DNA of 64,000 nucleotides, taken from contig NC_035166.2 of NCBI RefSeq assembly GCF_001659605.2, forward strand, positions 17,317,003 through 17,381,002, written 5' to 3'. Both the position numbers and the translations under genes were made by a program. This DNA comes from Manihot esculenta (lineage: Eukaryota; Streptophyta; Magnoliopsida; Malpighiales; Euphorbiaceae). How positions within the stretch are numbered: position 1 is the stretch's first letter; each line of letters starts with the position of its first letter. The notes beneath the pieces are model-generated. The model did not search any database and was not told the DNA's origin. It saw only the letters and a list, made by a program, of their open reading frames with translations. Below, piece after piece: positions 2,670-52,339 of this stretch.

Positions 2670-3467
2670 TGATACGGATCCAATAGGGCAAATTTCTAAC
2701 AATAGTGTGGAGCAAACTTATGTCATTCAAATGGATCTAAAAGGAGTTCAAAATCATATTCATATGATCCATATACATTTGGGGTGTGCTTCAACTCATA
2801 TGGGACAGATTTGGTGCAACACTTGCAATCATAGGCTTAGGGAGCCTAATCAAACCTATGGGCTAAAACTACACAAAGGGAAGCCTAAAGTGAAGATCAA
2901 GTAAGGCCTTTGTGAAGATTCAGCTTTGTTATGATGGGCTTGCTAGGTTTTATTATTTGAACACTTATTTTATTTTAGCTTTTTTTAGGCTTGTATTTTG
3001 GCCATGTTTTATCTTTTAAGTTTTAGAGTGTTGGGCCATGTATTTGGGCTTATGTTTTAATACTTATGTGTTTATTGTGTGATTGGGCTTGGGCCTTATA
3101 TTTGTTTCGGCCAGGCCTAAGAAGAGTGTCTTAGGGTTTTATTTGTTTTATCCTTACTATATAAGGATAAGAAACACTTGTAAGAGGCAGCTTTTAATCA
3201 AACTTTTCAGAATTTCTTTCATGCCTTTGGCGTGTATTGCTTTGAGTGAGAGTGAGGATTTGCTTTCATCAATTGCACCAGGAATCTTGGCTAACTTATC
3301 AACTATTCGTTGTGGCGTTTGTCGGATTCTCATCTAAATCCTTCGATCATTGGTGTTTCAGCTTCTCTAAGTTTGGGGTGCCATAGGAGGTGGGTTTATC
3401 AAATCTTTGGATTTCGTATCTACTTTTGCGTGTGGGTTTGAGGCTTGTGCCATAGGGTTCCGCGTCA
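2670..3467 (+). repeat. X#1 5' LTR
   Basis: 798 bases, TGATACGG to CCGCGTCA. Bases up to about 2904 encode the same tail that closes the X ORF. TATATAAGG at 3158-3166 is a likely promoter box. The reconstituted 3' LTR is also 798 bases. Confidence 0.9.
3158..3166 (+). promoter_or_regulatory. TATA box of X LTR
   Basis: TATATAAGG sits about 490 bases into the LTR and is kept in nearly all X and D LTR copies in the window. It is the most likely core promoter. This is a motif-based call. Confidence 0.5.
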
Positions 3468-3469
3468 GT

Positions 3470-3481
3470 TGGTATCAGAGC
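3470..3481 (+). other. Primer-binding site of X#1
   Basis: TGGTATCAGAGC follows the LTR end after a GT spacer and matches initiator tRNA-Met. The GT spacer matters because the same two bases are retained after the 3' LTR at 10228-10229. Confidence 0.85.
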
Positions 3482-4386
3482 CAAAGTGAGGTAAATTCTG
3501 ATTTATCTTAGGATCTAGGGGTTTTGAGTTTTCCTTTTCTTCCTTGTTCTTTTCGGTGAAAGCTTGTGTGTCCATGGCTGCACCTTATTGATTATTAGTT
3601 ATAAAAAAAAAATCAAAAATCAAAAATCGCCTTTACCTTATTTATCTTGATCTGGCCGAAATTGTGGTATGTTTCCTTTTTCGTCCATATTGCCTTACCT
3701 ATCTCAATTGATTGCTGTAATTTATGGGAATCAATTTTGAATTTTGAATTTGGTTGAATCCAGATTAGGAGATAAAAGAATTTCTGCCTATTTCCTAAAG
3801 TGCACATTTAAGGAAATTGCATCTAAATTGATTTGATGTCAAATCCTTCTTTTAACACCAGAATTTTCGTCCATGTTTCTGATCTGAGTGAAATTTACAT
3901 TTTTCTTTTCTGATTCTATTTGTGGGGTTTTGATACTTTCTTTTTTGGATAGATTTATATAGATCCATATTTATTTTTCTTTGAAGTGAATTAAATTCAA
4001 ACATTTATTCAGGTTCGTTTTTTTTATTTGCATTCTAAGTTTCTTTTTTTGGTTTAAGCTTGCTTTTACTTCCTTGACATTGCTGGAGTATTATTTGCTT
4101 GTGTTTATACTCTAGGTGATATTTTTTCAAGTAGCACAAAACCTGGTTCTTGTGTTACTTTCCAAATTGTCAGTGTCCTCTTTCTAGTTTTTGCGCGCTT
4201 CCTTCTTTCTTTAGGTTTTCTTCTTTGTTTCATTAAACGCACCTTGTGGTTGGTTGGTTGACCTTAGTTTCTGAAGTGCAATTGAAGAATCAGCAAAAGA
4301 ATGGTAAGAGTGCAAAAACTTGAGTACTTTCTTTTTTTAACACAATATTTGCTAGTTCTTTTTGTTCTTTGTTGATTTAAGGTAGG
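3482..4386 (+). other. X#1 leader
   Basis: Untranslated region of about 900 bases between PBS and ORF, with an A-rich run near 3603-3627. It has no credible ORF. Related leaders occur at 7994-8919, at 36043-36790 plus 38783-38942, and as fragments at 11182-11618 and 49801-50215. Confidence 0.7.
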
Positions 4387-5937
4387 ATGAGTAAAAACAA
4401 GAATGTGCTGGATCGTACTGATGGAAGTGAATCGAACATGAGTAACGATTACAAGCTCTTTAAGAAGTCAGTCAGTGGTGAGATACAAAGGCTCAATAAG
4501 ACTCTTGAGAGGTTGACTGAAACTATGGAGAGTTTGAATGTCTCACAAGCTTCCACTTCTACAAGACTACCTCAAAGAACTCTTAATTGCAATAATGACT
4601 GTGACGATTCGGATGTGTTGGTTAATAATGTGTTGCTTGCTGCACATTGTGAAATGCTTGTTGCTAGGTATGCTCTGAATATGCAGGTTAAGGAAGAAAG
4701 CCTAGAACAACGGGAAAACATATTTCACACTAGGTGTTTGGTTAATGGAAAAGTGTGTACTCTCATTATTGATGGAGGTAGTTGCACAAATGTGGCTAGT
4801 GTGTATATGGTGCAGAAATTGGGCTTGACTTCTATTAAACACCCTAAGCCATACAGATTGCAATGGTTGAATGATTGTGGTGAGGTTAGAGTTACACGTC
4901 AGGTGGTTATACCATTTTCTATTGGTAGGTACAAGGATGAGATATTGTGTGATGTGGTACCTATGCAGGCAAACCATATGTTGTTGGGTAGGCCGTGGCA
5001 ACATGATAGAAATGTGCAACATGATGGGTTCAATAACAAGTACTCCTTCACTCATGAAGGACAGAAGGTTATATTCGCTCCTTTATCACCTCAAGAGGTA
5101 TACGTTGATCAAATAAAGATGCTGGAGAGGGAGAGGGAGGCTTCGGCCTTGGCCACAAAGGGGAGTGAGAGCTTGAATTCTGCGGAAAAGATGAGAGGAA
5201 AGAGTGAGTTTGAGGGTAAAGAGGCTGGAAAAGAATCAACGCTAGTTCAAGGAGGGAAGGTGGAGAAAGAAAAGGAGAATGAAGAGGCTAAAGCTTTAAT
5301 CTCAGTTTCCATAGAGATTGAAATTGAACAGGAAGTTGTAATGCATGAATCTGATGTAGTTGTTGAAAATTCCATTAATGAGCTTATGGAAGAGGTTGTG
5401 AATGATGGTGGACATGGGGAGCACGTGATTGATGAGGTGGAGGAGGCGAATGAGACTGTTTTGGAAGTTGTAGAGGAGAATGGGTCACATCCGCAGGATC
5501 TTTCTATGACTAATATTTTTATGCCTAGTTCATTTGTTCTTTATGTGCAGGTTGTTGATGAAAACATTCATTACAAAAGTTTTATCCTATTTCCACCTAT
5601 TCAAAAGGAGGTTTTTGAAGATACATGGGTTCCTAAAGCTTCCCTTTTTGACATAAATATCAGCAAGATTCGAGGACGAATCTTTTCTAAAGAAGGAGAG
5701 AATGATATGGATCTAATAGGGCAAATTTCTAACAATAGTGTGGAGCAAACTTATGTCATTCAAATGGATCTAAAAGGAGTTCAAAATCATATTCATATGA
5801 TCCATATACATTTGGGGTGTGCTTCAACTCATATGGGACAGATTTGGTGCAACACTTGCAATCATAGGCTTAGGGAGCCTAATCAAACCTATGGGCTAAA
5901 ACTACACAAAGGGAAGCCTAAAGTGAAGATCAAGTAA
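4387..5937 (+). CDS. X#1 gag-start/protease polyprotein reading into the 3' LTR
   Basis: 516 residues. Residues 1-60 are a gag-like start (MSKNKN...) with a likely coiled coil at about 20-55. The gag core and CCHC knuckle found in D are missing. Residues about 95-250 are a retropepsin-type domain with IIDGGSC (DGG instead of the usual D-S/T-G) and LLGRPWQ. Residues about 250-430 are acidic and low in complexity. The last 78 residues are encoded by the U3 of the 3' LTR and include a WCNTCNHRLREPN stretch. There is no RT or integrase, so the product cannot transpose itself. Either a structural/protease role or a passenger ORF is possible. The ORF is intact. Confidence 0.8.
   Translation: MSKNKNVLDRTDGSESNMSNDYKLFKKSVSGEIQRLNKTLERLTETMESLNVSQASTSTRLPQRTLNCNNDCDDSDVLVNNVLLAAHCEMLVARYALNMQVKEESLEQRENIFHTRCLVNGKVCTLIIDGGSCTNVASVYMVQKLGLTSIKHPKPYRLQWLNDCGEVRVTRQVVIPFSIGRYKDEILCDVVPMQANHMLLGRPWQHDRNVQHDGFNNKYSFTHEGQKVIFAPLSPQEVYVDQIKMLEREREASALATKGSESLNSAEKMRGKSEFEGKEAGKESTLVQGGKVEKEKENEEAKALISVSIEIEIEQEVVMHESDVVVENSINELMEEVVNDGGHGEHVIDEVEEANETVLEVVEENGSHPQDLSMTNIFMPSSFVLYVQVVDENIHYKSFILFPPIQKEVFEDTWVPKASLFDINISKIRGRIFSKEGENDMDLIGQISNNSVEQTYVIQMDLKGVQNHIHMIHIHLGCASTHMGQIWCNTCNHRLREPNQTYGLKLHKGKPKVKIK
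5665..5684 (+). promoter_or_regulatory. Pre-PPT stem-loop of X#1
   Basis: AAGATTCG-AGGA-CGAATCTT forms a perfect 8-bp stem with an AGGA loop, ending 4 bases before the PPT. The same structure precedes the PPT in X#2, B, W and D. D keeps the pairing with a changed base pair. Confidence 0.65.
5689..5702 (+). other. Polypurine tract of X#1
   Basis: AAAGAAGGAGAGAA lies immediately before the 3' LTR start at 5703, as expected for the plus-strand primer. It lies inside the ORF. Confidence 0.8.
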
Positions 5938-6010
5938 GGCCTTTGTGAAGATTCAGCTTTGTTATGATGGGCTTGCTATGTTTTATTATTTGAACTCTTA
6001 TTTTATTTTA

Positions 6011-6809
6011 TGACGCGGAACCCTATGGCACAAGCCTCAAACCCACACGCACAAGTAGATACGGAATCCAAAGATCTGATAAACCCACCTCCTATGGCAC
6101 CCCAAACTTAGAGAAGCTGAAACACCAATGATCGAAGGATTTAGATGAGAATCCGACAAACGCCACAACGAATAGTTGATAAGTTAGCCAAGATTCCTGG
6201 TGCAATTGATGAAAGCAAATCCTCACTCTCACTCAAAGCAATACACGCCAAAGGCATGAGAAGAATTCTGAAATTTTGATTAAAAGCTGCCTCTTACAAT
6301 TGTTTCTTATCCTTATATAGTAAGGAGAAAAACAAATAAAACCCTAAGACACTCTTCTTGGGCCTGACTTAAACACATAAGGCCCAAGCCCAATCACACA
6401 CTAAAATAACACATAAGTATTAAAACATAAGCCCAAAACATGGCCCAACACTCTAAAACTTAAAAGATAAAATATGGCCAGAATACAAGCCCAAACAAAG
6501 CTAAAATAAAATAAGTGTTCAAATAATAAAACATAGCAAGCCCATCATAACAAAGCTGAATCTTCACAAAAACCTTACTTGATCTTCACTTTAGGCTTCC
6601 CTTTGTGTAGTCTTAGCCCATAGGTTTGATTAGGCTCCCTAAGCCTATGATTGCAAGTGTTGCACCAAATCTGTCCCATATGAGTTGAAGCTCGCCCCAA
6701 ATATATATGGATCATATGAATATGATTTTGAACCCCTTTTAGATCCATTTGAATGACATAAGTTTGCTCCACACCATTGTTAGAAATTTGCCCTATTGGA
6801 TCCGTATCA
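6011..6809 (-). repeat. X#2 3' LTR
   Basis: Reverse-strand LTR, 799 bases, almost identical to 8934-9732. Its U3 part encodes the last residues of the X#2 ORF (stop at 6575). Confidence 0.92.
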
Positions 6810-7993
6810 TTCTCTCCTTCTTTAAAAAAGATTCGTCCTCGAATCTTGTTGATATTTATGTCAAAAAGGGAAGCTTTAGGAACCCATTTATCTTCAAAGA
6901 CCTCCTTTTGAATGGGTGGAAATAGGATAAAACTTTCGTCATGAATGTTTTCATCAACAACCTGCACATCAAGAACAAATGAACTAGACATAAAAATATT
7001 AGTCATAGAAAGATCTTGTGGATGTGACCCATTCTCTTCTACAACTTCCAAAACAGTCTTATTCACCTCCTCCACCTCATCAATCATGTGCTCCCCATGT
7101 CCACCATCATTCACAACCTCTTCTATAAGCTCATTAATGGAATTTTCAAGAACAACTACATTAGATGCATGCATTACCACTTCCTCTTTAATTTCAATCT
7201 CTATGGAAGTTGACATTGAAACGTTAGCCTCTTCTTTCTCCTTTTCTTTCTCCATCTTCCCTCCTTGAACTAGTCTTGATTCTTTTCCAGCCTCGTTACC
7301 CTCAAACTCACTCTTTTCTCTCATTTTTTCCGCAGAACTCAAGCTCTCACTCTCCTTTGTAGCCAAGGCCAAAGCCTCCCTCTCCCTCTCCAGCATTTTT
7401 ATGTGATCGGCATATACCTCTTGAGGTGATAAAGGAGCGAGTATAAGCTTCTGTCCTTCATGAGTGAATGAGTATTTATTATTGAGCCCATCATGTTGCA
7501 CCTTTCTATCATATTGCCACGGCCTACCCAACAATATATGGCTTGCCTGCATAGGTACCACATCGCACAAGATCTCATCCTTATACCTACCAATAGAAAA
7601 TGGTATAACCACCTGGCGTGTAACTCTGACCTCACCACATTCGTTCAACCATTGCAATCTGTATGGCTTAGGGTGTTTAATAGAAGCCAAGCCCAATTTC
7701 TCCACCATATACACACTAGCCACATTTGCACAACTACCTCCATCAATAATGACAGTACACACTTTTCCATTAACCAAACACCTAGTGTGAAATATGTTTT
7801 CCCGTTGTTCCAGGCTTTCTTCCTTAACCTGCATATTCAGAGCACGCCTAGCAACAAGCATCTCACAATGTGCAGCAAGCAACACATTATTAACAGACAC
7901 ATCCAAATCATCACAGTCATTATTGCAATTATGAGTTCTTTGAGGTATTCTTGTAGAAGTGGACGCTGGTGAGATATTCTGATCTTTACTCAT
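6575..7993 (-). CDS. X#2 gag-start/protease polyprotein
   Basis: The start at 7993 (MSKDQN...) is chosen because it matches the start of X#1 and X#3; upstream in-frame residues are leader. Compared with X#1 the coiled-coil gag start is almost wholly deleted (MSKDQNI runs straight into ASTSTR). The retropepsin-like domain (IIDGGSC, LLGRPWQ), the acidic region and the U3-encoded tail are intact. This young copy inserted without the coiled coil. So either that region is dispensable for a copy moved in trans or the ORF product is not needed by its own RNA. Cellular role is not known. Confidence 0.8.
   Translation of the reverse strand: MSKDQNISPASTSTRIPQRTHNCNNDCDDLDVSVNNVLLAAHCEMLVARRALNMQVKEESLEQRENIFHTRCLVNGKVCTVIIDGGSCANVASVYMVEKLGLASIKHPKPYRLQWLNECGEVRVTRQVVIPFSIGRYKDEILCDVVPMQASHILLGRPWQYDRKVQHDGLNNKYSFTHEGQKLILAPLSPQEVYADHIKMLEREREALALATKESESLSSAEKMREKSEFEGNEAGKESRLVQGGKMEKEKEKEEANVSMSTSIEIEIKEEVVMHASNVVVLENSINELIEEVVNDGGHGEHMIDEVEEVNKTVLEVVEENGSHPQDLSMTNIFMSSSFVLDVQVVDENIHDESFILFPPIQKEVFEDKWVPKASLFDININKIRGRIFFKEGENDTDPIGQISNNGVEQTYVIQMDLKGVQNHIHMIHIYLGRASTHMGQIWCNTCNHRLREPNQTYGLRLHKGKPKVKIK
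6828..6847 (-). promoter_or_regulatory. Pre-PPT stem-loop of X#2
   Basis: An 8-bp stem with AGGA loop on the reverse strand, the same as in X#1. The PPT follows at about 6810-6823. Confidence 0.65.
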
Positions 7994-8919
7994 CCTACCT
8001 TGAATCAACAAAGAACAAAGAGAACTAGCAAATATTGTGTTAGAAAGGAAAGCACTCAAGTGTCTGCACACTTACCACTTTTTTGCTGATTCTTCAATTG
8101 CACTTCAGAAACTAAGGTCAACCAACCAACCACAAGGTGCGTTTAATGAAACAAAAAAAAAGAAAACCTAAAGAAAGAACGAAGCGCGCAAAAACTAGAA
8201 AGAAGACACTGACAATTTGAAAAGTAACACATGAACTAGGTTTTGTGCTACTTGAAAAATATTACCTAGAGTATAGCCACAAGCAAACAATACTCCAGCA
8301 ATGTCAAGGAAGTAAAAGCAAGCTTAAACCAAAAAGAAACTTTGAATTGAAATAAAGACAAATCTGGACAAAAGTTTGAATTTAATTCACTTAAATGCAA
8401 ATTAAATATGGATCTATTTAAATCTACCCAAAAAAGGCAAGTATCAAAAACACCACAAATAGAATAAAAAAATATATATATATAAATTTCTCTCAGATCA
8501 TAAATATGGACGAAAATGGGCATTAAAAAAAAGGATTTGACACCAAATCGATTTAGATCCAATTGCCTTAAATGTGCACTTTAGGAAATAGGCAGAAATT
8601 CTTTTATCTCCTAATCTGGATTCAACCAAATTCAAAATTCAAAATTGATTCCCACAAATTACAGCAATCAATTGAGATAGGTAAGGCAATATGGACGAAA
8701 AAGGAAGTATATCACAATTTCGGCCAGATCAAGGTAAATAAGGCAAAGGCGATTTTTTTTTTTTTTTTTTTTTGGATTTCAATTTTTTTTTTTTTTTTTA
8801 GATTAATAATCAAGAAGGTGCAGCCATGGATACACAAGCTTTCACCGGAAAGAACAAGGAAGAAAAGGAAAACTCAAAAACCCTAGATCCTAAGATAAAT
8901 CAGAATTTACCTCACTTTG
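7994..8919 (-). other. X#2 leader with long homopolymer runs
   Basis: Untranslated leader. Two T runs on the plus strand (about 8753-8773 and 8785-8799) are A runs in the element RNA. The A run next to TTGAAATCC is the same tract at which the Z insertion switches orientation near 26629. Confidence 0.7.
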
Positions 8920-8931
8920 GCTCTGATACCA
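8920..8931 (-). other. PBS of X#2
   Basis: Reverse complement of TGGTATCAGAGC, two bases from the LTR end; initiator tRNA-Met primer type. Confidence 0.85.
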
Positions 8932-8933
8932 AC

Positions 8934-9732
8934 TGACGCGGAACCCTATGGCACAAGCCTCAAACCCACACGCACAAGTAGATACGGAATCCAAAGATCT
9001 GATAAACCCACCTCCTATGGCACCCCAAACTTAGAGAAGCTGAAACACCAATGATCGAAGGATTTAGATGAGAATCCGACAAATGCCACAACGAATAGTT
9101 GATAAGTTAGCCAAGATTCCTGGTGCAATTGATGAAAGCAAATCCTCACTCTCACTCAAAGCAATACACGCCAAAGGCATGAGAAGAATTCTGAAATTTT
9201 GATTAAAAGCTGCCTCTTACAATTGTTTCTTATCCTTATATAGTAAGGAGAAAAACAAATAAAACCCTAAGACACTCTTCTTGGGCCTGACTTAAACACA
9301 TAAGGCCCAAGCCCAATCACACACTAAAATAACACATAAGTATTAAAACATAAGCCCAAAACATGGCCCAACACTCTAAAACTTAAAAGATAAAATATGG
9401 CCAGAATACAAGCCCAAACAAAGCTAAAATAAAATAAGTGTTCAAATAATAAAACATAGCAAGCCCATCATAACAAAGCTGAATCTTCACAAAAACCTTA
9501 CTTGATCTTCACTTTAGGCTTCCCTTTGTGTAGTCTTAGCCCATAGGTTTGATTAGGCTCCCTAAGCCTATGATTGCAAGTGTTGCACCAAATCTGTCCC
9601 ATATGAGTTGAAGCTCGCCCCAAATATATATGGATCATATGAATATGATTTTGAACCCCTTTTAGATCCATTTGAATGACATAAGTTTGCTCCACACCAT
9701 TGTTAGAAATTTGCCCTATTGGATCCGTATCA
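8934..9732 (-). repeat. X#2 5' LTR
   Basis: 799 bases, TGACGCGG on the plus strand to GGATCCGTATCA. It pairs with 6011-6809. Confidence 0.92.
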
Positions 9733-10229
9733 TTTTAGCTTTTTTTAGGTTTGTATTTTGGCCATATTTTATCTTTTAAGTTTTAGAGTGTTGGGCCATG
9801 TATTTGGGCTTATGTTTTAATACTTATGTGTTTATTGTGTGATTGGGCTTGGGCCTTATATTTGTTTCGGCCAGGCCTAAGAAGAGTGTCTTAGGGTTTT
9901 ATTTATTTTATCCTTATTATATAAGGATAAGAAACACTTGTAAGAGGCAGCTTTTAATCAAACTTTTCAGAATTTCTTTCATGCCTTTAGCGTGTATTGC
10001 TTTGAGTGAGAGTGAGGATTTGCTTTTATCAATTGCACCAGGAATCTTTGCTAACTTATCAACTATTCGTTGTGGCGTTTGTCGGATTCTCATCTAAATC
10101 CTTCGATCATTGGTGTTTCAACTTCTCTAAGTTTGGGGTGCCATACGAGGTGGGTTTATCAAATCTTTGGATTTCGTATCTACTTGTGCGTGTGGGTTTC
10201 AGGCTTGTGCCATAGGGTTCCGCGTCAGT

Positions 10230-10430
10230 AGATTCAGCTCATAGGTTTGATTAGGCTCCCTAAGCCTATGATTGCAAGTGTTGCACCAAATCTGTCCCAT
10301 ATGAGTTGAAGCACGCCCCAAATGTATATGGATCATATGAATATGATTTTGAACTCCTTTTAGATCCATTTGAATGACATAAGTTTGCTCCACACTATTG
10401 TTAGAAATTTGCCCTATTGGATCCGTATCA
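10230..10430 (-). repeat. Inverted X U3 fragment closing X#1
   Basis: About the first 200 bases of the X LTR in reverse, ending GGATCCGTATCA directly against the AGAAT target duplication. The first dozen bases (AGATTCAGCT) do not match the reversed U3 but match a forward U3 stretch. They look like filler at the join. Confidence 0.8.
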
Positions 10431-10981
10431 AGAATTCTGAAATTTTGATTAAAAGCTGCCTCTTACAATTGTTTCTTATCCTTATATAGTAAGGAGAAAA
10501 CAAATAAAACCCTAAGACACTCTTCTTAGGCCTGACTTAAACACATAAGGCCCAAGCCCAATCACACACAAAAATAACACATAAGTATTAAAACATAAGC
10601 CTAAAACATAGCCCAACACTCTAAAATATAAAAGATAAAATATGGCAAGAATACAAGCCCAAACAAAACTAAAATAAAACAAGTGTTTAAATAATAAAAT
10701 ATATAGCAATCCCATCATAACAATACTGAATAAATTAGACAGCGCTATCTCCATTGCACACCTTAAGCTAGGTACTGCTTAGGTGTGTCTTCAAGCTTCA
10801 CGAGAGATGTGCCAAAGGCCAGCTCAGTCAATTCTTGTGTTACTTGTTCTTGAATGTGCAAGTTCATAGCTGCTTCAAGCTTCTTAACTTTACTCCTTGT
10901 CACTGGTCCACTAGGGAGTACCAATGGATCCTTACTTCCTTGATTCTCATGTGATTGTGCTTGCTGGTTCGTATCACTTTG

Positions 10982-12325: not shown

Positions 12326-13051
12326 TGATGCGGAACCCCAGCCTATTAGAGACTGAAACGACACATACCCTAGTAAAAAGAACTTAATTCAGAAAATAAT
12401 TCCCCAATCTAAAGCACCCTTAATTAACATGCAATTAAGAACACTTATAATGGATTGATTTTAAGAGCAGCAAGAATAAGAAACATACAAGTTAGTATCA
12501 AACCTTATTCGTGATACAATTGTCAAAAACCAAGATCTCTCTTAAGCTCTTAAAGAAGAATCGCATAAAGCAATTGTATTGAATAATTGATAATCTGTGT
12601 CTACAATAGAAAAAGAGATGCTTTATATAGCCTAAATTAAGACCCATGATCTTTGCCACTTCCCACTACTATACATGGACCCATGATCTTTGCCACTTCC
12701 CACAACTATGCATGGACCCATGATCTATGCCACTATCCACTACTAGATAACTATCCACTACTGTTTAACTACCCACTACCAAATAACTATTCACTACTGG
12801 TTAACTACCAACTACTAAATGACTACCCACTATAAATACAAAATTTGAATTGTCAATAAGGACACATTTGGCCTAATTGACTTGGAATGGCCAGATTGTT
12901 CTTCAACTTCAAAATGAACTTGCAAAGCTTCAACATATTCCTTCATGAATCCTTGAAGTGCTTCCTTCAACCTTTGGATCTCAGCCTTGTAATTGGTCCT
13001 TGAGGCAATACTAGCTCATCATTTTTGGTGTTGTTGGTTGTGCTTACATCA
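12326..13051 (-). repeat. B#1 3' LTR (Y)
   Basis: 726 bases, TGATGCGGAACCCC to GTGCTTACATCA on the plus strand. It contains short degenerate tandem repeats based on ACTACCCACTACT and a reversed TATATAAAG. It is the reference Y LTR in this window. Confidence 0.88.
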
Positions 13052-13184
13052 TCCCCTCCCTCTTGAAAAGGATTCGTCCTCGAATCTGTACCAAAATCAA
13101 AAGGAGACAAATCAGAAACATTAAAGGTAGCACTTACACCAAACTCACCTGGCAGATCAATTATGTATGCATTGTCATTGATCC
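12830..13184 (-). pseudogene. B#1 pol C-terminus, running into the 3' LTR
   Basis: Continues the integrase cut by element A at 13184. It reads NDNAY...VSATFNVSDLSPFD, crosses the PPT and stays open in U3 with the QGPITRLRSKR motif until a stop at 12830. The U3-encoded part resembles the tails of D and Z (GP-[ILV]-TR followed by basic residues). In CRM elements this end of integrase is thought to bear a targeting motif; that link is inference here. Confidence 0.75.
13052..13086 (-). promoter_or_regulatory. PPT and pre-PPT stem-loop of B#1
   Basis: The PPT is the purine strand of TCCCCTCCCTCTT (13052-13064). GATTCG-AGGA-CGAATC (reverse strand, 13071-13086) forms a 6-bp stem just upstream. Confidence 0.65.
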
Positions 13185-13984
13185 TGTAATACCCGGCTAG
13201 AATCCGGCACCGGAATTCCTGTTGTCTGGTGAATCCGGGGTGTCGGAATTCTAAAAAGGGTAGGATTTATGTTTTACTAGGTGTTATGATGTGTTTAAAT
13301 GTTTTAAGGTTAAAGGAAGTGAGTTTTGAGTTGAAATGACCTAAGGCAGTTGAGCCAAGTTCGGCCGCCGAAAGTAAGTTCGGCCGCTGAAAGTGTTTGG
13401 CTTCCGAAGGGAAGTTCGGCCCCCGAATGCTGCATGGTGTTGCATGTGATTGGGCAGCCGACGATGAGTTGGCCAGCCAAGCTGAGTCATGGCTTTTGAC
13501 AGATGTTGGCCTCAGATTCTTGCCATGAATTAGCCACGTCTTCTATGACTCATCTGCAAGTGTTTTGAGCAGCTCATGCAGGAGTTTGCTCATTCACCAA
13601 GTTTTGAAGGGTTTGAAGCAAAAAGTGAGTTTGAGAGAGTTTGAGAGTGTGAGAAGAGGTGATCCGTTTTCCCTTGTTCAGAGTGTCTAGCTTCTTGCTA
13701 CAGGAGGTAAGTGATGCACTTAAACATGTGTATATGTTTCTGAGTTTATGGGGATAAAGGAAGGAGATGCATGCTTAGGGTATTAATGGTAGTTTTAAAG
13801 AATTATGCATGGCTACATGTTTATATGTATGTTTGTTTTGTTGTTTGGGGTTATTAGCTAGTCTTGGACCCCTGTGATCATATACATGAGTATATGTATG
13901 TTGAGGAGGTGAAGTTTGCATGGTTTGAGAAGTTGAAGGAAAGAAGGAGATGGTTTGTCGTTGAAACTGAGTTCTGGATGAACT

Positions 13985-14175
13985 CAGGTTCGGCAGCCGA
14001 AAGTTCATTCGGCCGCCGAACCTCTTGCATGGTAGCTTAGGCTGCCACAGCTTGCCCCCGAGTGTTTTTGCATTTTCGGCTCTGTTTGGGGGATTCGGCC
14101 GCCGAAGGTGCCGCCGAAGGTGCTTGAGTTTCGTCTCTGGAGAGGACATTCGGCCACCGAACCTGCCGCCGAAAG
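13985..14175 (+). promoter_or_regulatory. Cluster of TTCGGCCGCCGAA-like motifs in the A LTR
   Basis: Repeated short palindromes of the form TTCGGC-N-GCCGAA, several containing GCCGCC, the core of the plant GCC box bound by ERF factors. The unrelated-length LTR at 40239-41822 keeps a similar cluster. A regulatory role is inference. Confidence 0.4.
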
Positions 14176-14561
14176 TGTTCTGTCCAGCTTTTCTTTTGCA
14201 TGCTTTGCATGATTAGTTAAGTGAGTTTCAGGGGATTCTTGGGGAGTTTAATAGAGGTAGTGATAAGTTAGTTTGGTCCCTCATTTGAGTCCATCTGTAT
14301 AGGTACAGACCAGAGGAACCAGAGAGAGCAGCAGTGAGTACTGCTCCAGAGGTGAGCCTGCAGAGTCAGTCAGTCCAGATAGCCAGAGGTGAGTGGAACT
14401 AAACTTATGACTTTTAATTGAATCACAAACTGCTTTTAGCATATCTCATGCATCATGTTTATGCCATAGGTTGATTGCATTAGTATACACGAAGATGTTG
14501 CATTGCATTGTTATTTGGTGATGTGAGTGAATGCTGAATGATCCAATAGTCACAGACAGGA

Positions 14562-14672
14562 AGATCAGGAGCCTTTGACTACGCCCTGGCACGTATAGCA
14601 AAGACCAGGAGCCTTTGACTACGCCCTGGCAGGTATAGCAAAGTCCAGGAGCCTTTGACTACGCCCTGGCAA
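14562..14672 (+). repeat. Tandem repeat of about 40 bp in the A LTR
   Basis: Nearly three copies of a unit with GACCAGGAGCCTTTGACTAC followed by GCCCTGGCA. The 3' LTR has the same array at 21978-22088, and a degenerate related unit follows at 14715-14747. The C/E LTR has a related array (41060-41190). Confidence 0.85.
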
Positions 14673-15361
14673 TGGTAAGTTCACAGGTGTTATATACACA
14701 TATACATATATGACAGGAAGACCAGGTGCTCGATTCTACGCCCTGGCACAGAGTTACTGGGACTATGTGGTGACAGGTTTACTCTTGATGTGGCTTGTCT
14801 GTGATATGGTGCATTCCATGAGATCATATTTTACTGCGATGTTTTACTGTTCTACTCACTGGGCTATAGAGCTCATCCCACTCCCTTAACCCCAGTTTTG
14901 CAGGTTCAGTATTCAGTGTACAGTGTACAGGGACAGTCCAGCAGAGTACAAGAAAAGTAAAGAGATCTGTAATAGCTTAGAGTGGACATGTAATATTAAA
15001 GAGATGTAATAGTTGTTGCTTGACCTAGACCTAGTGATGTATGTTTTATACATGATCTGTATATGTATATATGTTTTCCTGTATGTGAAAACCAGGCTTA
15101 ACAGGTATGAATGAACCCATCTAGAGCAAGCTCTAGTCAAGGATACAGAGTACAGAGTACATGAGTACAGAGTACAGAGATAGTGCATGCACAGGTTGAG
15201 CCTTGGTTCAGAAAAGAGTTTTATTTTCACATAAAATGTATGATCATGTATGAGGTTTACAGGTACACAGAGAGTATAGCAGGCTTGCTACGGGTTCTGG
15301 CAGCCTTAAGCCGACCTGAATCCTAGCGCCGGTGACGGTCCATTTTGGGGTCGTTACAGAT

Positions 15362-15373
15362 TGGTATCAGAGC
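15362..15373 (+). other. PBS of A
   Basis: TGGTATCAGAGC three bases after the LTR end; initiator tRNA-Met type. Confidence 0.85.
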
Positions 15374-15579
15374 CCTAGGTTCACATGATCGGACCTATAG
15401 AGACAGTGTTGGGCTCAGACAGGCTAGAAGTGGTCAAGCACAATAGGAAATCATGTCCACTAGGATAGGGTCTTGAGTCCTATCTGCTATGATATGCCAT
15501 GAGTGTTGCATGTGTATGAGTGATATGTGATGTTTATGTGCTAAAATGGTATGTTATATGTTGTGTTTTCAGAGTAAAG

Positions 15580-18500
15580 ATGCGAGGAACTCGTCGATCA
15601 GCTCGATTGACTGGAGTCCCACCAGAGAATGAGAGACCAGCTGCTCGTCCTCCTGCATTGCCAAGGGCAAGGTCTCAGAGATCTAGCAGGGAAGGTACGT
15701 CAATAGACCCAAGAAGGTCTGTCGACGAGAGCAGAAGAGGAACAGTTAGGGGAGGAAGATCAGAGGAAAGGAGGGAAGCTATGGAGATTGATCCGTCTAG
15801 AGATGACAGCATGGGTATAGGCAGTTTTGAGGAAGGTATGGGAGAGTCGCAGGGAGGTGCTCAGGCCTCAGGTTTTGGCTATCCATCCTTGTTTCAGGAG
15901 CCAGAGTATCCGATGGAGGGGATGTCGGAGTACTCTCGATTTGACCCATATCCTACATACATGCCATATATGCCATATCCTCACTATTACCCATCATATC
16001 CACCATATCCTATGTATCCATCTTCCCCTATACATCTAAGTGCAGCACACCTAGAGCCAAATGAACCAAATGAACCAGTACTACCACCAGAACCAGTAGC
16101 CCCTGTTGTTGACAGACATGAACCTAGCTCATCTGGAGGTAAAGTCCAAATGACGGAGTATTTGAAATTGGATGCTCCTAAATACAACACAGGAGATGAT
16201 CCATTTGATTACCTCAGAGCAGTTAGGATGATAACCAGTGAATTGGGAGCAGATGATAGGAGAGCCATTGAGATGGCAGGTTTCACATTAAAGTGTAGGA
16301 AAGCCAGAGAATGGTTTAAGAATTATGTGGAGCCTAGAATGGACTGTATGTCATGGGGAGAGTTCGCCAATGAGTTTGCAGGGTGGGCTTTTCCTGACAG
16401 TTCGAGGGAGATGAAAGTAATTGAATTTGAACAGTTAAGACAGACAGACGAGATGAGTGTTGATGAATTCACAGATAAGTTTCTGGATCTGCTTCAGTAC
16501 GTGGGTCAAGCCTATGATACTGATCAGAAGAAAGCAAGGAGATATACCATGCGACTTCATCCCAGGTATTCTTCTTTGATCCTTCCAGCAGAAAAGGAGA
16601 GTTTTCACTCTATTATAGATGCAGCCAGGAAAATGGAAGCTAGTGCCAATAGTCAAAAACAGTCAAAGGCACAAGCTTCGGGTTCTAAGGCCCCCAGTTT
16701 AGGTTCTACAGGCAGTAAGAGATGGGATAGAGCGAGAGGAACAAGGAAAGGGTTCTGGAATAAAGTCAAGTCAGGTCTGGGAATAGGTAGTGGCTCAAGC
16801 TCTGGCACAGCTCCAGTCTGCAGACGATGCGGAAAACCACATGGAGGAATTTGTCGGTTGGGATCTACAGCTTGTTTTCGATGTGGACAGGAAGGGCATA
16901 TTGCTCGGGATTGTCCGCAGATGACTTTTGCACCATCCCAGCAGATGAGTTCAGGCAGTGTGGTTCAGCCAGTTGTACGGCCAGCAGCTCCAGTCATGCC
17001 TCAGACTAGTGGCAGAGGCAGAGGTAGAGGGGTAGCCTTTACTTCAGCAGCAGGTTCCCGAGGTGGAAATCCGGTAGCCCCAGCACGGATTTTCACAGTG
17101 ACACAGGAGGAGGCTAACATGTCGAACACAGTGGTGTCAGGTAATCTCATCATTGGGTGTTCTGATGTGTATGCTTTGATGGACCCCGGTGCTTCTCATT
17201 CCTTTATTGCTTCGAGAGCCATAGAGCGATTGGGTTTGATCAGTTCTGAGTTAGAGTATCCTCTCTGGGTCAGTGGACCTAGATTTGACCCATCAGTGGC
17301 AGTGTCAGTCTGTCGTTTCAGTCCAGTATTCATAGAGGGTAGATGCCTTCCAGCTGACCTTGTGGTTCTAGACTTGACAGATTTTGATGTCATTCTAGGG
17401 ATGGATTGGCTATCTGCATATAGTGCTACGTTGGACTGTCGAGAGAAGCTAGTGAGTCTCAGAGACCAGGATGGGTCAGAGTGTGTCTTCAGAGGAGACA
17501 GGAGAGGTACACCCAGAGGTATGATTTCAGCCCTTCAGGCTCGTCGTTTGCTTAGGAGGGGTTGTCAGGGGTTTCTAGCTCATGTGAGAGAGCTAGATAG
17601 TCAGGTGAGGGAACCAGCCACAGTACCAGTAGTCCGAGAGTTTCTCGATGTGTTCCCAGACGATTTGCCAGGACTACCACCTGATAGGGAGATAGGGTTT
17701 GACATTGAATTACTGCCAGGTACCAGACCTATCTCTATTCCTCCCTACAGGATGGCGCCAGCTGAGTTAACAGAGTTAAAAGAACAGTTGCAGGACTTGG
17801 TAGATAAGGGTTTCATCCGTCCTAGTACCTCACCTTGGGGTGCTCCAGTGCTCTTTGTCAGAAAGAAGGATGGATCCCTCAGACTTTGTATCGACTACAG
17901 ACAGTTGAACAAGGTCACTATCAAGAATAGGTATCCTTTACCTAGGATTGATGATCTATTTGATCAGCTAGCTGGAGCAGGTTGTTTCTCGAAAATAGAT
18001 CTGAGATCTGGGTATCATCAGTTGAGAGTCAGAGAGGCAGATGTGCCTAAGACAGCTTTCCGGACCAGATATGGGCATTATGAGTTCTTAGTGATGCCGT
18101 TCGGGTTGACTAACGCCCCTGCAGCATTTATGGATCTCATGAACAGGGTATTCAGTGAATTTCTGGATCACTTTGTCATTGTGTTTATCGATGATATCTT
18201 AGTGTATTCCAGAGATGCAGAGGAGCATGCCCAGCATCTGAGGATTGTTTTGCAGACACTGAGAGAGCATGGTTTATATGCCAAGTTCTCGAAATGTGAG
18301 TTTTGGTTACGGAGCATTGCCTTCTTGGGACATGTGGTATCAGCAGAGGGTATTGAGGTAGATCCCAAGAAGATAGAGGCTGTAGCTAACTGGCCCAGAC
18401 CCACGACAGTGACTGAGATTAAAAGCTTTCTGGGACTGGCAGGTTACTATAGGAGGTTCGTTCAGAACTTCTCAAAGATAGCAGCTCCTATGACCAAATT

Positions 18501-20526: not shown

Positions 20527-20567
20527 GGTTAGTTTCCTCCTTGTGTTTTATTTTGTGTTTTAGGAAC

Positions 20568-20600
20568 ATCCGAGGACGAATACTCTTAAGGAGGGGAGAA
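20568..20600 (+). other. Pre-PPT motif and PPT of A
   Basis: ATCCG-AGGA-CGAAT (20568-20581) is the family-wide pre-PPT motif with one mismatch in the stem, here outside any ORF. AAGGAGGGGAGAA (20588-20600) is the PPT directly before the 3' LTR. Confidence 0.75.
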
Positions 20601-25599: not shown

Positions 25600-25603
25600 T
25601 GAT

Positions 25604-25831
25604 GTGAACCAGCATGGGAAGCAAGGCAAGGATCCCTTGGAGCTACAACAAGGACCATTGACAAGGAATAAAGCAAGGAAGTACGGCGTTACTCTTGGAT
25701 TGCATATTCAAGAATTTATTACAAGAGAGATGACTGAAATTGCTAGGGATAAGTGCGAGAAGGAACTTGAAGGTCATTCGAAGCTGATTACGTTGCTGGG
25801 TGTATGCATGGATGAAGCAGAAGCAAATTGA
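25604..25831 (+). CDS. U3-encoded polyprotein tail of Z (in LTR)
   Basis: About 75 codons without a required ATG. In a full element this would be the C-terminal end of pol read into the 3' LTR. It shares the QGP-x-TR-basic motif and the LHIQE, EMTE-like region with the D tail (46490-46726). It occurs again in reverse at 26878-27106. It is not expected to be expressed alone. Confidence 0.5.
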   Translation: MNQHGKQGKDPLELQQGPLTRNKARKYGVTLGLHIQEFITREMTEIARDKCEKELEGHSKLITLLGVCMDEAEAN

Positions 25832-29125: not shown

Positions 29126-29278
29126 GTTGGTATCAGAGAGTTGATTTGTTTCCTTATTCTCCCATGCTTCCCAAATATAGTTCTCATCTCGTAAGCCTTG
29201 AATTAAGCGATGGTAACTTGATTTGGAGTTTCCCTTTTTAAATCTTTGAAGTATCGTATTATTTCCTTATCCGTATCA
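28296..29278. mobile_element. W insertion with two LTR starts facing inward
   Basis: 983 bases flanked by ATAAT (28291-28295 and 29279-29283). The empty site is visible in B#2 near 56698. It comprises a full W LTR (+, 28296-29125), GT plus 11 bases of PBS, then about 143 bases of W U3 in reverse ending TTATCCGTATCA. The join falls in a shared AGAG. The forward part equals plus-strand strong-stop DNA (U3-R-U5-PBS). Confidence 0.9.
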
Positions 29279-29436
29279 ATAATGCCCATGCCCTTTACAT
29301 TTAAAGCACTGAATATCTCTAGTTCTATTTGATTTAGGGGCTGATTCATTTTTACCATGAGAGTTGGATGTTTCTTTGGAAGGTAACATGCCTTTTTGAG
29401 TTGAAGACTTATCAAACCTTTTAGGATCAGGCTTGG
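29279..29436 (-). pseudogene. B#1 gag zinc-knuckle segment
   Basis: Continues B#1 gag after the W insertion: IQCFKCKGHGHY and the Ser/Lys-rich stretch before it. It stops at GGCTTGG, where the X/Y piece begins; about 400 bases of gag found in B#2 are missing here. Confidence 0.75.
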
Positions 29437-36790: not shown

Positions 36791-38777
36791 TGATGCGGAA
36801 CCCCAGCCTATTAGAGACTGAAACGACACATACCCTAGTAAAAAGAACTTAATTCAGAAAATAATTCCCCAATCTAAAGCACCCTTAATTAACATGCAAT
36901 TAAGAACACTTATAATGGATTGATTTCAAGAGCAGCAAGAATAAGAAACATACAAGTTAGTATCAAACCTTATTCGTGATGCAATGTCAAGAACCAAGAT
37001 CTCTCTTAAACTCTCAAAGAAGAATCGCATAAAGCAATTGTATTGAATAATTGATAATCTGTGTCTACAATAGAAAAATGGATGCTTTATATAGCCTAAA
37101 TTAAGACCCATGATCTTTGCCACTTCCCACTACTATACATGGACCCATGATCTTTGCCACTACCCACAACTATGCATGGACCCATGATCTATGCCACTAT
37201 CCACTACTAGGTAACCACCCACTACTGTTTAACTACCCACTACCAAATAACTACCCACTACTGGTTAACTACCAACTACTAAATGACTACCCACTATAGG
37301 GTAAAGGAACTTAGTTCAGAAAATAATTCCCCAATCTAAAGCACCCTTAATTAACATGCAATTAAGAACACTTATAACTGATTGATTTTAAGAGCAGCAA
37401 GAATAAGAATCATACAAGTTAGTATCAAACCTTATTCATAATGGCATAAAGTAATTATATTGAATAATTGATAATCTGTTTAGAATATGGAAAAAGATAT
37501 GCTTTATATAACTTAAATAAAGATCCATGACAAAGCTGAATCTTCACAATGGCCTTTCTTGATATTCACTTTAGGCTTCCCTTTGTGCAATTTTGGCCCA
37601 TATGTTTGGAAAGTATTGTGGGGTAAGTGATGCGGAACCCAGGACCAACATGTTATCAAAAACCCCGTCACACAACTTGACAAACAACAAGACAAAGATA
37701 TCTTCCAGAAGGTTGCTTTACTACACCCCTAACCAACGAATGTGATTAGAAAAATAGATAATGGAGCGAAGGTTGCTCTACCACACCCCTAACCAACCAA
37801 TGCAATTAGAAACATGGATAATCAAGTGAAGGTTGCTCTACCACACCCCTAACAAACCAATGTGATTAGAAACATAGATGATCATGCAATTTTATCTTCG
37901 AGAACACCACAAGAAATTCTTGATAAGTTAACTAAAGATGGAGGAGATCCATATTAGAACGCCACAAGGTTAAACCTTGATAAGTTGCTAAATAATGGAG
38001 AATAACCAAAATATTGTTTATAACATCATCTTTTATTAATTGGCTCATTGAGGCTGTTACCTTAAGGGTGTTTTTATAGCCCTAATCCTATTGTAGGAAG
38101 GTGTAATTACAATATAGAGATGCGGAACCCCAGCCTATTAGAGACTGAAACGACACATACCCTAGTAAAAAAAACTTAGTTCAGAAAATAATTCCCCAAT
38201 CTAAAGCACCCTTAATTAACATGCAATTAACTACACTTATAACTGATTGATTTTAAGAACAGCAAGAATAAGAATCATAAAAGTTAGTATCAAACCTTAT
38301 TCGTGATGCAGTGTCAAGAACCAAGATCTCTCTTAAACTCTCAAAGAAAAATTGCGTAAAGCAATTGTACAATATGGAAAAAAAGATGCTTTATATAACC
38401 TAAATAAAGACCCATGATTTTTGCCACTTCTCACTATTATGCATGGACCCATGATCTATGCTACTATGCACTACTGGATAACTACCCACTACTGGTTAAC
38501 TATCAACTGCTAAATAACTACCAACTACTGAATTAGTGATGGAGAATCTGTTAATGCAAATACAAAATTTTGAAGAGCCAATAAGTACACATTTGGCCTA
38601 ATTGACTTGGAATGGCCAGATTGTTCTTCAACTTCAAAATGAACTTGCAAAGCTTCAACATATTCCTTCATGAATCCTTGAAGTGCTTCCTTCAACCTCT
38701 TGGATCTCAGCCTTGTAATTGGTCCTTGAGGCAATGCTAGCTCATCATTTTTGGTGTTGTTGGTCGTGCTTACATCA
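36791..38777 (-). mobile_element. Mosaic LTR, copy 2, a solo insertion
   Basis: 1987 bases with TGATGCGG at the left and CTTACATCA at the right. AAAGG is duplicated at 36786-36790 and 38778-38782. On the reverse strand: Y LTR (38777-38120), W LTR part (38119-37628), D integrase about 23 bases (37627-37605), X U3 (37604-37531), Y LTR middle (37530-37299), Y LTR rest (37298-36791). Four internal joins are shared with 805-2358. No PBS or coding interior. Confidence 0.85.
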
Positions 38778-38956: not shown

Positions 38957-40238
38957 TGACGTGGAACCCTATGGCACAAGCCTCAAACCCACATGCACAA
39001 GTAGATACGGAATCCAAAGATCTGATAAACCCACCTCCTATGGCACCCCAAACTTAGAGAAGTTGAAACACCAATTGATACGGATCCAATAGGACAAATT
39101 TCTAACAATGGTGTGGAACAAACTTATATCATTCCAATGGATCCAAGAGTAGTTCAAAATCATATTCATATAATCCATATATATTTGGGGCGTGCTTTAA
39201 CTCATATGGGACAGATTTGGTGCAACACTTGCAATCATAGGCTGAGGGAGCCTAATCAAACCTATGGGCTAAAACTACATAAAGGAAAGCCTAAAGTGAA
39301 GATCAAGTAAGGCTTTTGTGAAGATTCAACTTTGTTATGATGGGTTTGCTAGTTTTATTATTTAAACACTTGTTTTATTTTAGTTTTGTTTGGGCTTGTA
39401 TTCTGGCCATATTTTATCTTTTAAGTTTTAGAGTGTTGGGCCATGTTGTGGGCTTATATTTTAATACTTATGTGTTATTTTAGTGTGTGATTGGGCTTGG
39501 GCCTTAGGTGTTTAAGTCAGACCCAAGAAGAGTGTTAAGGGTTTTATTTGTTTTTATCACCAATGATCGAAGGATTTAGATGAGAATCCGACAAACGCCA
39601 CAACGAATAGTTGATAAGTTAGCCAAGATTCCTGGTGCAATTGATGAAAGCAAATCCTCACTCTCACTCAAAGCAATACACGCCAAAGGCATGAAAGACA
39701 TTCTGAAAAGTTTGATTAAAAGCTACCTCTTACAATTGTTTCTTATCCTTATATAGTAAGGAGAAAAATGAATAAAACCCTAAGACACTCTTCTTGGGCC
39801 TGAGTTAAACACATAAGGCCCAAGCCCAATCACACACTAAAATAACACAAGTATTAAAACATAAGCCCAAAATATGGCCCAACACTCTAAAACTTAAAAG
39901 ATAAAATATGGCCAGAATACAAGCCCAAACAAAGCTAAAATAAAATAAGTGTTCAAATAATAAAAATATAGCAAGCCCATCATAACAAAGCTGAATCTTC
40001 ACAAAAGCCTTGATCTTCACTTTAGGCTTCCCTTTGTGTAGTTTTAGCCCATTGGTTTGATTAGGCTCCCTAAGCCTATGATTGCAAGTGTTGCACCAAA
40101 TCTGTCCCATATGAGTTGAAGCTTGCCCCAAATATATATGGATCATATGAATATGATTTTGAAATCCTTTTAGATCCATTTGAATGACATAAGTTTGCTC
40201 CCATATGAGTTGAAGCTTGCCCTAATGGATCTGTATCA
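38957..40238 (-). repeat. X#3 5' LTR, split
   Basis: 38957-39075 plus 39565-40238, about 793 bases. Near 40199-40223 a block with CATATGAGTTGAAGC replaces the expected sequence. It is a second copy of 40108-40132. Confidence 0.8.
39076..39559 (+). mobile_element. Short X insertion ending in TATCA
   Basis: 484 bases flanked by CCAAT (39071-39075 and 39560-39564). It begins with the X U3 (TGATACGG), runs through the U3-encoded tail to GTTTTATTTGTTTTT and then ends ATCA. The rest of the LTR (R end and U5) is absent. The last five bases TATCA mirror the first five TGATA, so it may be a minimal U3-U3 insertion. Its tail frame (39113-39310) is open. Confidence 0.75.
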
Positions 40239-49800: not shown

Positions 49801-50277
49801 TGGCCGAAATTGTGATATGCTTCCTATTTCATTTATATTGCCTTACCTATTTCAATTGATGGATGTAATTTATGGGAATCAATTTTGAATTATGAATTGG
49901 CTAGAACCAGATTAGGAGACAAAAGAAATTTTGCCTATTTCTAAATTGATTTGATATCAAATCCCTCTTTTAAGATCAGAACATTCGTCATAATGCTGAA
50001 GATGAGTGAAATTTAATTTTTTTTTTAATTCTATTTGTGGAATTTTGATACTTACCTTTTTGGGTAGATTTAAAAAGATCCATATTTAATTTGTCCAGAT
50101 TCGTTGTCATTTGGATTCCAAATTTCAGTCTTTCGGTTGAAGTTTGCTTCTGCTTCCTTGACATTGCTGGAGTATTGTTTGCTTGTGTCTATACTGTAGG
50201 TGATATTTTCATGTAGCACGTGATTGATGAGGTGGAGGAGACTAATGAGGCTGTTTTGGAAGTTGTAGAGGAGAATG
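49801..50277 (+). repeat. X leader and ORF fragments
   Basis: 49801-50215 is a degraded X leader. 50216-50277 matches the acidic part of the X ORF (HVIDEVEE...NE..LEVVEEN). The join shows a large internal deletion. Confidence 0.6.
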
Positions 50278-50526
50278 TGATTCCTAAATTCCCATTTGGA
50301 ATTTAAAATGGGAAATTCCAAATGATGGCAAATCAAGTTACCATCGATTAATTCAAGACTTACGAGATGAGAACTATATTTGGGAAGCATGAGAGAATAA
50401 GGAAAAAAGCTACACTCTCTTCAACACATGTGGACGCACAACACAATTTTAGATTGCATAATGCATGTATGGCCAAATTACATTTAGGCCAGTTTTATTA
50501 TTTTGTGGAATTTGTTTTAAATTAAT
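50278..50526 (+). repeat. W LTR U3 fragment
   Basis: W U3 tail region, from AAAATGGGAAATTCC to TTTGTTTTAAATTAA. Both ends are broken. Confidence 0.6.
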
Positions 50527-51066
50527 CCACTTAAGGGCATAATGCCCATGCCCTTTACATTTAAAGCAGAGTGACTGCACAGGAAAGGATAAAAATGAGA
50601 GATATGCATGAGAGAAAACGTTAGTCGGTGTGGAGGTGCCATCTGGGTTGCCACCCATTAGGGGAATAGAACATTAGATTGATTTTGTTCCTCGAGCTCA
50701 GATTCCAAACCGTCCAGCTTACCGGAGTAATCTTGAAGAGACGAAGGAATTGCAAAAGCAAGTTGATGAGTTGCTAGCTAAGGGGCATATCAGGGAGAGC
50801 CTTAGTCCATGTGCAGTACCTGTTTTGTTGGTTCCAAAGAAAGACGGAGCAATACGCATGTGTGTTGATTGTCATGCGATCAACAGAATCACTGTAAAGT
50901 ATTTTTGAGATTAACTAATGCACCTAGCATATTTATGTGGTGCTGTTTTCTTTACCAAAATTGATTTGAAAAGCGGTTATCATCAAATTAGGATGAAGCG
51001 GTTTATGTGAATGGTTAGTGATGCCTTTTGGCTTAACTAATGCACCTAGCATATTTATGAGATTAA
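50527..51066 (+). pseudogene. Scrambled B-type gag/RT fragments
   Basis: A zinc-knuckle piece in reverse (50536-50568), a post-protease linker piece (50569-50636), then RT pieces (LPPIRGIEH...NRPAYRS...MCVDCHAIN) in forward orientation. The RT part is shuffled: the stretch GCACCTAGCATATTTATG occurs at about 50919 and again at 51041. No function is possible. Confidence 0.7.
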
Positions 51067-52339
51067 TGATGTAAGCACGACCAACAACACCAAAAATGAT
51101 GAGCTAGCATTGCCTCAAGGACCAATTACAAGGTTGAGATCCAAGAGATTGAAGGAAGCACTTCAAGGATTCATGAAGGAATATGTTAAAGCTTTGCAAG
51201 TTCATTTTGAAGTTGAAAAACAATCTGGCCATTCCAAGTCAATTAGGCCAAATGAGTCCTTATTGACAATTCAAATTTTGTATTTATAGTGGGAAGTTAT
51301 TTAGTAGTGGGTAGTTATCCAGTAGTGGATAGTGGCATAGATAATGGATCGATGCAGAGTAGTGGGTAGTGGCATAGATCATGGGTCCATGCATAGTAGT
51401 GGGAAGTGGCAAAGGTCATGGATCTTTATTTATGTTATATAAAGCATCTCTTTTTCCATATTGTGGACAGATTATCAATTATTCAATACAATTGCTTTAT
51501 GCGATTCTTCTTTGAGAGCTTAAGAGAGATCTTGGATAGTGTTTTTACAAAACCAGTTGTACTTAATACTTGCTGTTTTAAGTGTCTATTTTGTTTGCTT
51601 GCTTTGAATTGTTTTTGTTGAGTCAATATTAAGATAAGTTAACCTAGGATTGCATGCTTAGGGATAACTTCGTGCTAAGCACATCCGTCTTGTTAATTTT
51701 TAATTCTTAGTTTGTCAATTTGGTGTCTTTCGGTCTGTTGGTTCCATACACTTAGTTTGACAAATTGCACTTAAAACAGCAAGTATTAAGTACAACTGGT
51801 TTTGTAAAAACACTATCCAAGATCTCTCTTAAGCTCTCAAAGAAGAATCGCATAAAGCAATTGTATTGAATAATTGATAATCTGTGTCTACAATAGAAAA
51901 ATGGATGCTTTATATAGCCTAAATTAAGACCCATGATCTTTGCCACTTCCCACTACTATACATGGACCCATGATCTTTGCCACTACCCACAACTATGCAT
52001 GGACCCATGATCTATGCCACTATCCACTACTAGGTAACCACCCACTACTGTTTAACTACCCACTACCAAATAACTACCCACTACTGGTTAACTACCAACT
52101 ACTAAATGACTACCCACTATAAATACAGAATTTGAATTGTCAATAAGGACACATTTGGCCTAATTGACTTGGAATGGCCAGATTGTTCTTCAACTTCAAA
52201 ATGAACTTGCAAAGCTTCAACATATTCCTTCATGAATCCTTGAAGTGCTTCCTTCAACCTCTTGGATCTCAGCCTTGTAATTGGTCCTTGAGGCAATGCT
52301 AGCTCATCATTTTTGGTGTTGTTGGTCGTGCTTACATCA
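51067..52339. repeat. Palindrome of Y U3 and leader, joined to B#2
   Basis: The left arm starts TGATGTAAGC (51067) and the right arm ends GCTTACATCA (52339). Each arm is the first part of a Y LTR to GATCTTGG, then Y leader from ATAGTG to GTTTTAAGTG. Both arms share the same deletion between LTR and leader. The loop (51585-51767) is further leader. The turn lies at a shared CAC. Arms differ by a small indel of about 54 bases in the tandem-repeat zone. The right end meets the B#2 PPT exactly. Confidence 0.8.

Follow-up and report, generated by a model that had tools for sequence, protein, structure and literature searches.

Long terminal repeat insertions with U3 at both ends in Manihot esculenta and their probable origin from joined cDNAs

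DIRS elements have inverted long terminal repeats (LTRs), use a tyrosine recombinase and are not known to form a target site duplication (TSD), and the junctions of retroviral 2-LTR circles keep primer bases, these molecules being circular, joined from the unique 5′ (U5) to the unique 3′ (U3) end, and not integrated. In Triticeae, rice and maize, composite LTR insertions flanked by a TSD and carrying near-identical LTRs were explained, in the main text of Sabot and Schulman (2007; PMC1950507), by one integration after abnormal reverse transcription (template switching). A word search of that main text found no mention of inverted, palindromic or opposite arrangements. Here, Ty3/gypsy-type insertions with U3 at both ends (U3-U3 insertions) are described from a 64,000-nucleotide stretch of the Manihot esculenta genome (the window, C6:17317003-17381002, contig NC_035166.2 of the 640-Mb assembly GCF_001659605.2, 86 contigs) and from other contigs. 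They are real, recurrent, mechanistically informative and uncommon, and are judged to represent aberrant complementary DNA (cDNA) integration rather than a new transposon class.

The window consists of nested LTR elements of the Ty3/gypsy type. Its open reading frames (ORFs) gave Pfam matches to RVT_1, RNase H, Integrase_H2C2 and rve, in that order, the primer binding site (PBS) TGGTATCAGAGC was found after the window LTRs, and 5-bp TSDs flank ten U3-U3 cases as well as six ordinary insertions of the window. Elements of this type usually have one U3 and one U5 end, whereas all ten cases have U3 at both. The LTR families were named X (798 bases), Y (869), Z (726 and longer forms), W (~831), XY (799) and V (~2.2 kb); we infer that Y and Z correspond to the Z and Y of the initial annotation of this DNA. 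In the pair test, the 5-mers abutting same-family outward U3 termini were compared, with flanks shifted by 1-29 bases as the control. Ten cases with a U3 terminus at both ends and an exact 5-bp TSD were accepted, 3 in the window and 7 elsewhere. Searches of Rfam and of viral and genome contig collections returned 0 matches.

U3-U3 insertions of the window

Three window insertions are confirmed to have U3 at both ends, one in each of the families X, Y and W, as the initial annotation had claimed for three families. The X-family insertion (2670-10430, + strand) is flanked by AGAAT at 2665-2669 and 10431-10435 and sits within an older solo LTR (2414-10976, TSD CTTTG). It consists of a 5′ LTR (2670-3467, +), an internal region (3468-5702, +) with the PBS at 3470, a 3′ LTR in two parts (5703-6010, +, and 9738-10227) and an inverted U3 arm running from LTR position 203 to 1 (10228-10430, −), with the turn at a shared GT 2 bases beyond the U5 end. 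The two parts of the 3′ LTR are separated by a nested ordinary X element (6011-9732, −; TSD TTTTA, one copy at 9733-9737) whose LTRs are 798/799 identical. The closest match of the inverted arm is the 5′ LTR of its own element (199/203), and the two LTRs of that element agree with each other at 783/798. No Pfam match was found in the internal ORFs of this insertion.

The Y-family insertion (25600-27109, +) is flanked by TAATG at 25595-25599 and 27110-27114, with an empty site at 56128-56133. Its LTR (25600-26468, +) is followed by the PBS at 26471 and ~165 bases of leader, and then, after a turn in an A run, by an inverted U3 arm from position 475 to 1 (26635-27109, −) that is 474/475 identical. 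The W-family insertion (28296-29278, +), with ATAAT at 28291-28295 and 29279-29283 and an empty site at 56701-56706, has an LTR (28296-29125, +), GT plus 11 PBS bases (29126-29138), a turn at AGAG and an inverted U3 arm (29135-29278, −) that shows 0 substitutions over 144 matched columns against its own LTR, with one 10-base and one 1-base gap. That the turns lie at short shared words had been proposed at the outset for the A run, AGAG and the CAC of family Z; this held, and the GT of X is added. When the flanks were joined with one TSD copy, they aligned unbroken to another window copy for Y (80/80 bases) and W (3 differences), and the joined X flanks matched a related window LTR, with differences beside the insertion site. 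The near-identity of the X, Y and W arms to the LTRs of the same insertion indicates that the arms are as old as the insertions.

Identical abutting 5-mers were found in 3/13 same-family U3(+)..U3(−) pairs of the window and in 0/5 of its U5..U5 pairs, and the shifted-flank control gave 0/377 matches. The six ordinary TSD insertions comprised five recovered by the pair test and the V element at 13185-22774. Over 264 kb (the window and the next 200 kb), the counts were 3/47 for U3-U3 (control expectation 0.07), 0/26 for U5-U5 and 9/147 for ordinary pairs. No TSD-matched U3-U3 pair was present in the adjoining 200 kb, so that all three of the 264 kb fall in the window; since the rate elsewhere is also modest by the W, Y and Z counts given below, the window is unusually rich in such cases.

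Other rearranged LTRs are also present in the window. A truncated Y LTR (positions 869-228) at 27352-28002 is accompanied by a 48-base target deletion. At 29437-30575, an X LTR (−) and an internal piece from the side of the polypurine tract (PPT) are joined to Z U3 141-1, with no TSD and ~367 target bases missing relative to 56862-57228. A chimeric LTR occurs at 805-2359 and 36791-38777, in which a Z LTR is followed by a 3′ portion of a W LTR, then by a piece of X and by a 3′ portion of another Z LTR; the two copies share 97% identity, and one is a solo LTR with TSD AAAGG.

Cases on other contigs and their joints

The suggestion that such insertions might recur genome-wide was borne out, as single events in several families. 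Seven further TSD-flanked U3-U3 cases were found on other contigs, namely L010 (CTAGA), L034 (TAAGG), L035 (TTAAC), L040 (AAGCC), L041 (GTAGG), L042 (ATTTC) and L043 (TGAAG). All seven were rechecked together for U3 ends, TSD and joined flanks: both U3 ends and the TSD were retained in 7/7, and the joined flanks ran unbroken through a related copy, that is, an empty site, in 5/7 (L010, L034, L040, L042 and L043). For L035, L041 and L042, the left 5-mer was read first and the right end retrieved afterwards, and the right 5-mer agreed with it. L010, of family X, was spotted among 44 genome places, four of which were retrieved. L042, 8.2 kb long, is a tail-to-tail dimer with X sequence flanking the joint to the left and to the right. 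L041 is an X-W heterodimer, consisting of an X element and a W-internal element with an X 5′ LTR, and this 5′ LTR matches the left X LTR at the joint in 510/511 columns.

Frequency was estimated for one small family, W. Its exact U3 termini number 76 in the genome, in 50-55 clusters, and 6 outward pairs within 12 kb start from 5 left termini, of which 3 were TSD-verified (the window W, L034 and L035), one is the tail-to-tail pair L033 without a TSD, and the fifth proved not to be an outer end. The true right end of L035 lies beyond its listed W partner terminus. In the scan of U3 termini within 12 kb that had been recommended at the start, W gave 3 verified cases against 50-55 clusters; the only outward Y pair among 100 of 228 termini listed is that of the window, and among 100 of 332 Z termini listed, six outward pairs were seen by eye, with a TSD in 0/4 tested. 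The pair at C6 17402804/17412788 and the inner pair of L034 are 3′ LTRs with no duplication, and no U3-U3 case was seen at L011 or L012.

Further arrangements were observed at other loci. On C18, L003 carries an X LTR, 688 bases of leader, a turn and an inverted U3 249-1 (1282-2705), a further candidate whose left end lies behind a V-like insertion. In L009 (3572-5821), an X element turns more than once, and one of its turns runs through 40 leader bases. A tandem W array at C8:22846480-22851482 has five same-strand W U3 termini spaced 1244-1246 bases apart.

A whole-genome search for the tail-to-tail U5-U5 pattern gave 6 loci, of which L040, L041, L042 and L043 are TSD-flanked, L033 is not, and L039 is of another kind. 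The head-to-head U3-U3 pattern, searched with X and W ends, gave 2 loci, whose ends are separated by 15 and 19 bases, against five U5-U5 loci of X and W ends; as the two patterns differ in length and their stringency is unequal, this asymmetry is only weakly suggestive. In five tail-to-tail joints, the U5 end is followed by spacer and 0-12 PBS nucleotides, one of them with a mismatch. The joints GTTGATACCAAC, GTTGGTATAAC, GTTAC and GTTGGTATCAGAGCAAC of L033, L040, L042 and L043, respectively, consist wholly of spacer/PBS bases of one or both partners, which contribute 4+10, 8+3, 3+2 and 14+4 bases and overlap by 2, 0, 0 and 1. At L034, AAC (the reverse complement of GTT) adjoins the U5 end. 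The arms of L040 are identical at 798/799 positions, and those of L034 differ by one substitution. Normal integration trims the two bases beyond CA; the spacer bases kept at the joints indicate that the joined ends were not processed, and the presence of up to 12 PBS bases suggests that the transfer RNA (tRNA) primer had been copied. Between the W arms of L035 (870-1793), ~920 bases gave no match in the window and the next 200 kb and no Pfam match in the five frames tested; this centre is possibly captured sequence.

Origin of the U3-U3 insertions

The insertions have U3 at both ends, exact TSDs, empty sites, near-identical arms and joints made of spacer/PBS bases. They are probably integrated palindromic cDNA dimers, joined before integration. 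A cDNA whose U5 end had not been processed (the LTR end and two spacer bases, often with bases copied from the tRNA primer) would be fused in inverted orientation to a second cDNA or to a piece of one. This fusion would use up the U5 end and leave a linear product with U3 on each side, and the integrase would then insert both U3 ends at target cuts staggered, as usual, by 5 bp. Joining would take place before integration, in or near the particle; the heteromeric cases (L041, with its 510/511 columns) support a common particle with both templates in one reaction. The partial arms of X, Y and W in the window may derive from truncated plus strands, and the one-LTR forms may have lost their interior later by LTR-LTR recombination.

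How the ends would be joined bears on an alternative in which reverse transcription alone is responsible: the PPT-primed nascent plus strand (U3) would switch template near the PBS and prime the minus strand instead of the tRNA. We regard this as possible, if somewhat improbable, as the sole origin. Downstream of U5, the turn is reached after 2 bases in X, 13 in W, ~165 in Y and a longer distance in Z, and the turns sit at short shared words, which favours a reverse transcriptase jump; moreover, the inverted arms of X, Y and W end upstream of TATA (203, 475 and ~155 bases, with TATA at 488, 549 and 444), and a step in the identity of the Z arms falls at the predicted start site. The symmetric U5-U5 joints in which both LTRs are complete (L033, L040, L042 and L043), in contrast, are explained more simply by end-to-end joining, with overlaps of 0-2 bases, and favour host end joining. 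The fusion may have come about by host end joining or by a reverse transcriptase jump of the plus strand.

Two ordinary insertions at one target site, or nesting, could mimic a U3-U3 insertion. This happens in the genome, since L039 (C1:15183196-15202112) carries a Z and then a Y element with GTAGC at the left, in the middle and at the right, and several outward pairs are 3′ LTRs beside a PPT (the C6 pair and Z pairs on C2, C3 and C5). As an account of the ten accepted cases it is very unlikely, because the outer 5-mer is absent from the joints read (the centre of L035 was not checked base by base) and the partial arms cannot be whole insertions. Rearrangement after integration, by inversion, gene conversion or break repair, could have replaced a U5 end by U3, and LTR chimeras and target deletions are present in the window (27352-28002 and 29437-30575); it would, however, need to have stopped exactly at the TSD ten times, and the arms resemble each other as closely as do the two LTRs of one element, which makes it hardly credible. 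Equally hard to credit is an artefact of assembly or foldback reads: palindromes are error-prone in assembly, but a false join would not stop at U3 termini flanked by identical 5-mers, with empty sites besides, and do so on seven or more contigs.

Several observations weigh against an origin from joined cDNAs, or against individual cases. Two candidates of the initial annotation are not clear cases of U3-U3 insertion. The fourth, minimal X case (39076-39559, +, LTR 1 to ~486, TSD CCAAT), within an X LTR on the − strand (38957-40238), has a right end formed by TATC and one base, a single base needing a U3 end, and a deletion of LTR 487-796 via the 2-base TC explains it equally well. The Z palindrome (51067-52339), whose arms occupy 51067-51584 and 51768-52339 and which turns at a CAC of the leader, is real, but 52339 is no outer end: the 5-mers at 51067 and 52339 differ (ATTAA/TCCCC), no TSD was scored, and from 52340 the sequence continues as a PPT and an internal region that shares 98% identity with that of 12530-13184, which makes 52339 the inner edge of a 3′ LTR. 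Among the accepted or related loci, the L041 joint CCAAT equals spacer and TGG only with one spacer base changed (strict match 0), at the L010 joint the final bases of U5 are missing and ~12 additional bases are present, the tail-to-tail W pair L033 has no duplication (GTTCT/GCATG), L039 is two ordinary insertions, and L035 has its unassigned bases between the arms. The LTRs at the L042 joint differ in 35/801 columns, which indicates that the partners were not always sister copies. L040, L041, L042 and L035 were read in pieces, with stretches of the first three and a small part of L035 lying between them, and the Y and Z turns, at least 170 bases beyond U5, are not predicted by plain U5 end joining.

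The Z palindrome itself forms the 3′ portion of a larger element. Between 52339 and the far limit of the adjoining 200 kb, the probe located six U3(−) termini of these families, and ATTAA adjoins none of them. The palindrome arms differ by 25 substitutions, all of them no further than position 399, and do not differ over 401-518, with TATA at 370, as if two different U3s from different RNAs had been brought together via strand transfer at R. Its arm joint (51535-51537; 31534) links LTR 522 to leader 475, with GT and AG within one base, which is only suggestive of a spliced RNA (intron) origin.

The initial annotation had further proposed a mobile class with inverted terminal repeats. This was not supported, because the turns read differ from each other (the genome was not searched for any single turn) and the dimer model gives no route of self-copying. 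A DNA transposon with terminal inverted repeats would instead have a transposase-encoding or mobilised unit in many identical copies. The U3-U3 insertions look like one-off products, an uncommon side-product of the life cycle. It may tentatively be proposed, although we hold it to be doubtful, that they reflect a regular rescue route, in which cDNAs whose U5 ends bear tRNA bases, and which integrase therefore could not process, would join by their tails, within or between families, and enter the genome via two U3 ends, and that LTR palindromes transcribed as hairpins would silence their parent families.

Significance and comparison with known systems

These insertions indicate that, in nature, two U3 ends are acceptable to a Ty3/gypsy integrase, and that fusion before integration can unite cDNAs, including those of two different families, with the genome preserving a record of the joined ends. 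Programs that look for LTRs in direct orientation would overlook or misclassify such loci. For the Arabidopsis element EVD, head-to-head or tail-to-tail LTR arrangements are proposed as a possible source of LTR hairpins (PMC11624286). Inverted LTR pairs are a natural source of hairpin-shaped repeats and candidate triggers of silencing, and here they formed in one insertion step. A literature search on inverted, palindromic or tail-to-tail LTR insertions returned no title or abstract opening describing U3-U3 integration, most subscription journals being outside its coverage, so that novelty is unproven.

The likeness to retroviral 2-LTR circles is that unprocessed LTR ends with PBS/tRNA-derived bases are joined to another LTR end. 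As in the end joining of cDNA at chromosomal breaks, replication intermediates with end bases present only in cDNA enter the genome, although at breaks this occurs without integrase duplications. Inverted terminal repeats are shared with DIRS elements, whereas rve Ty3/gypsy integrase domains and 5-bp TSDs were found here. The composites described in the main text of PMC1950507 are direct repeats that share a third LTR and have normal U3 and U5 ends, while the parts of the present insertions are inverted; the same two features, a TSD around the composite and highly similar outer LTRs, are found in both.

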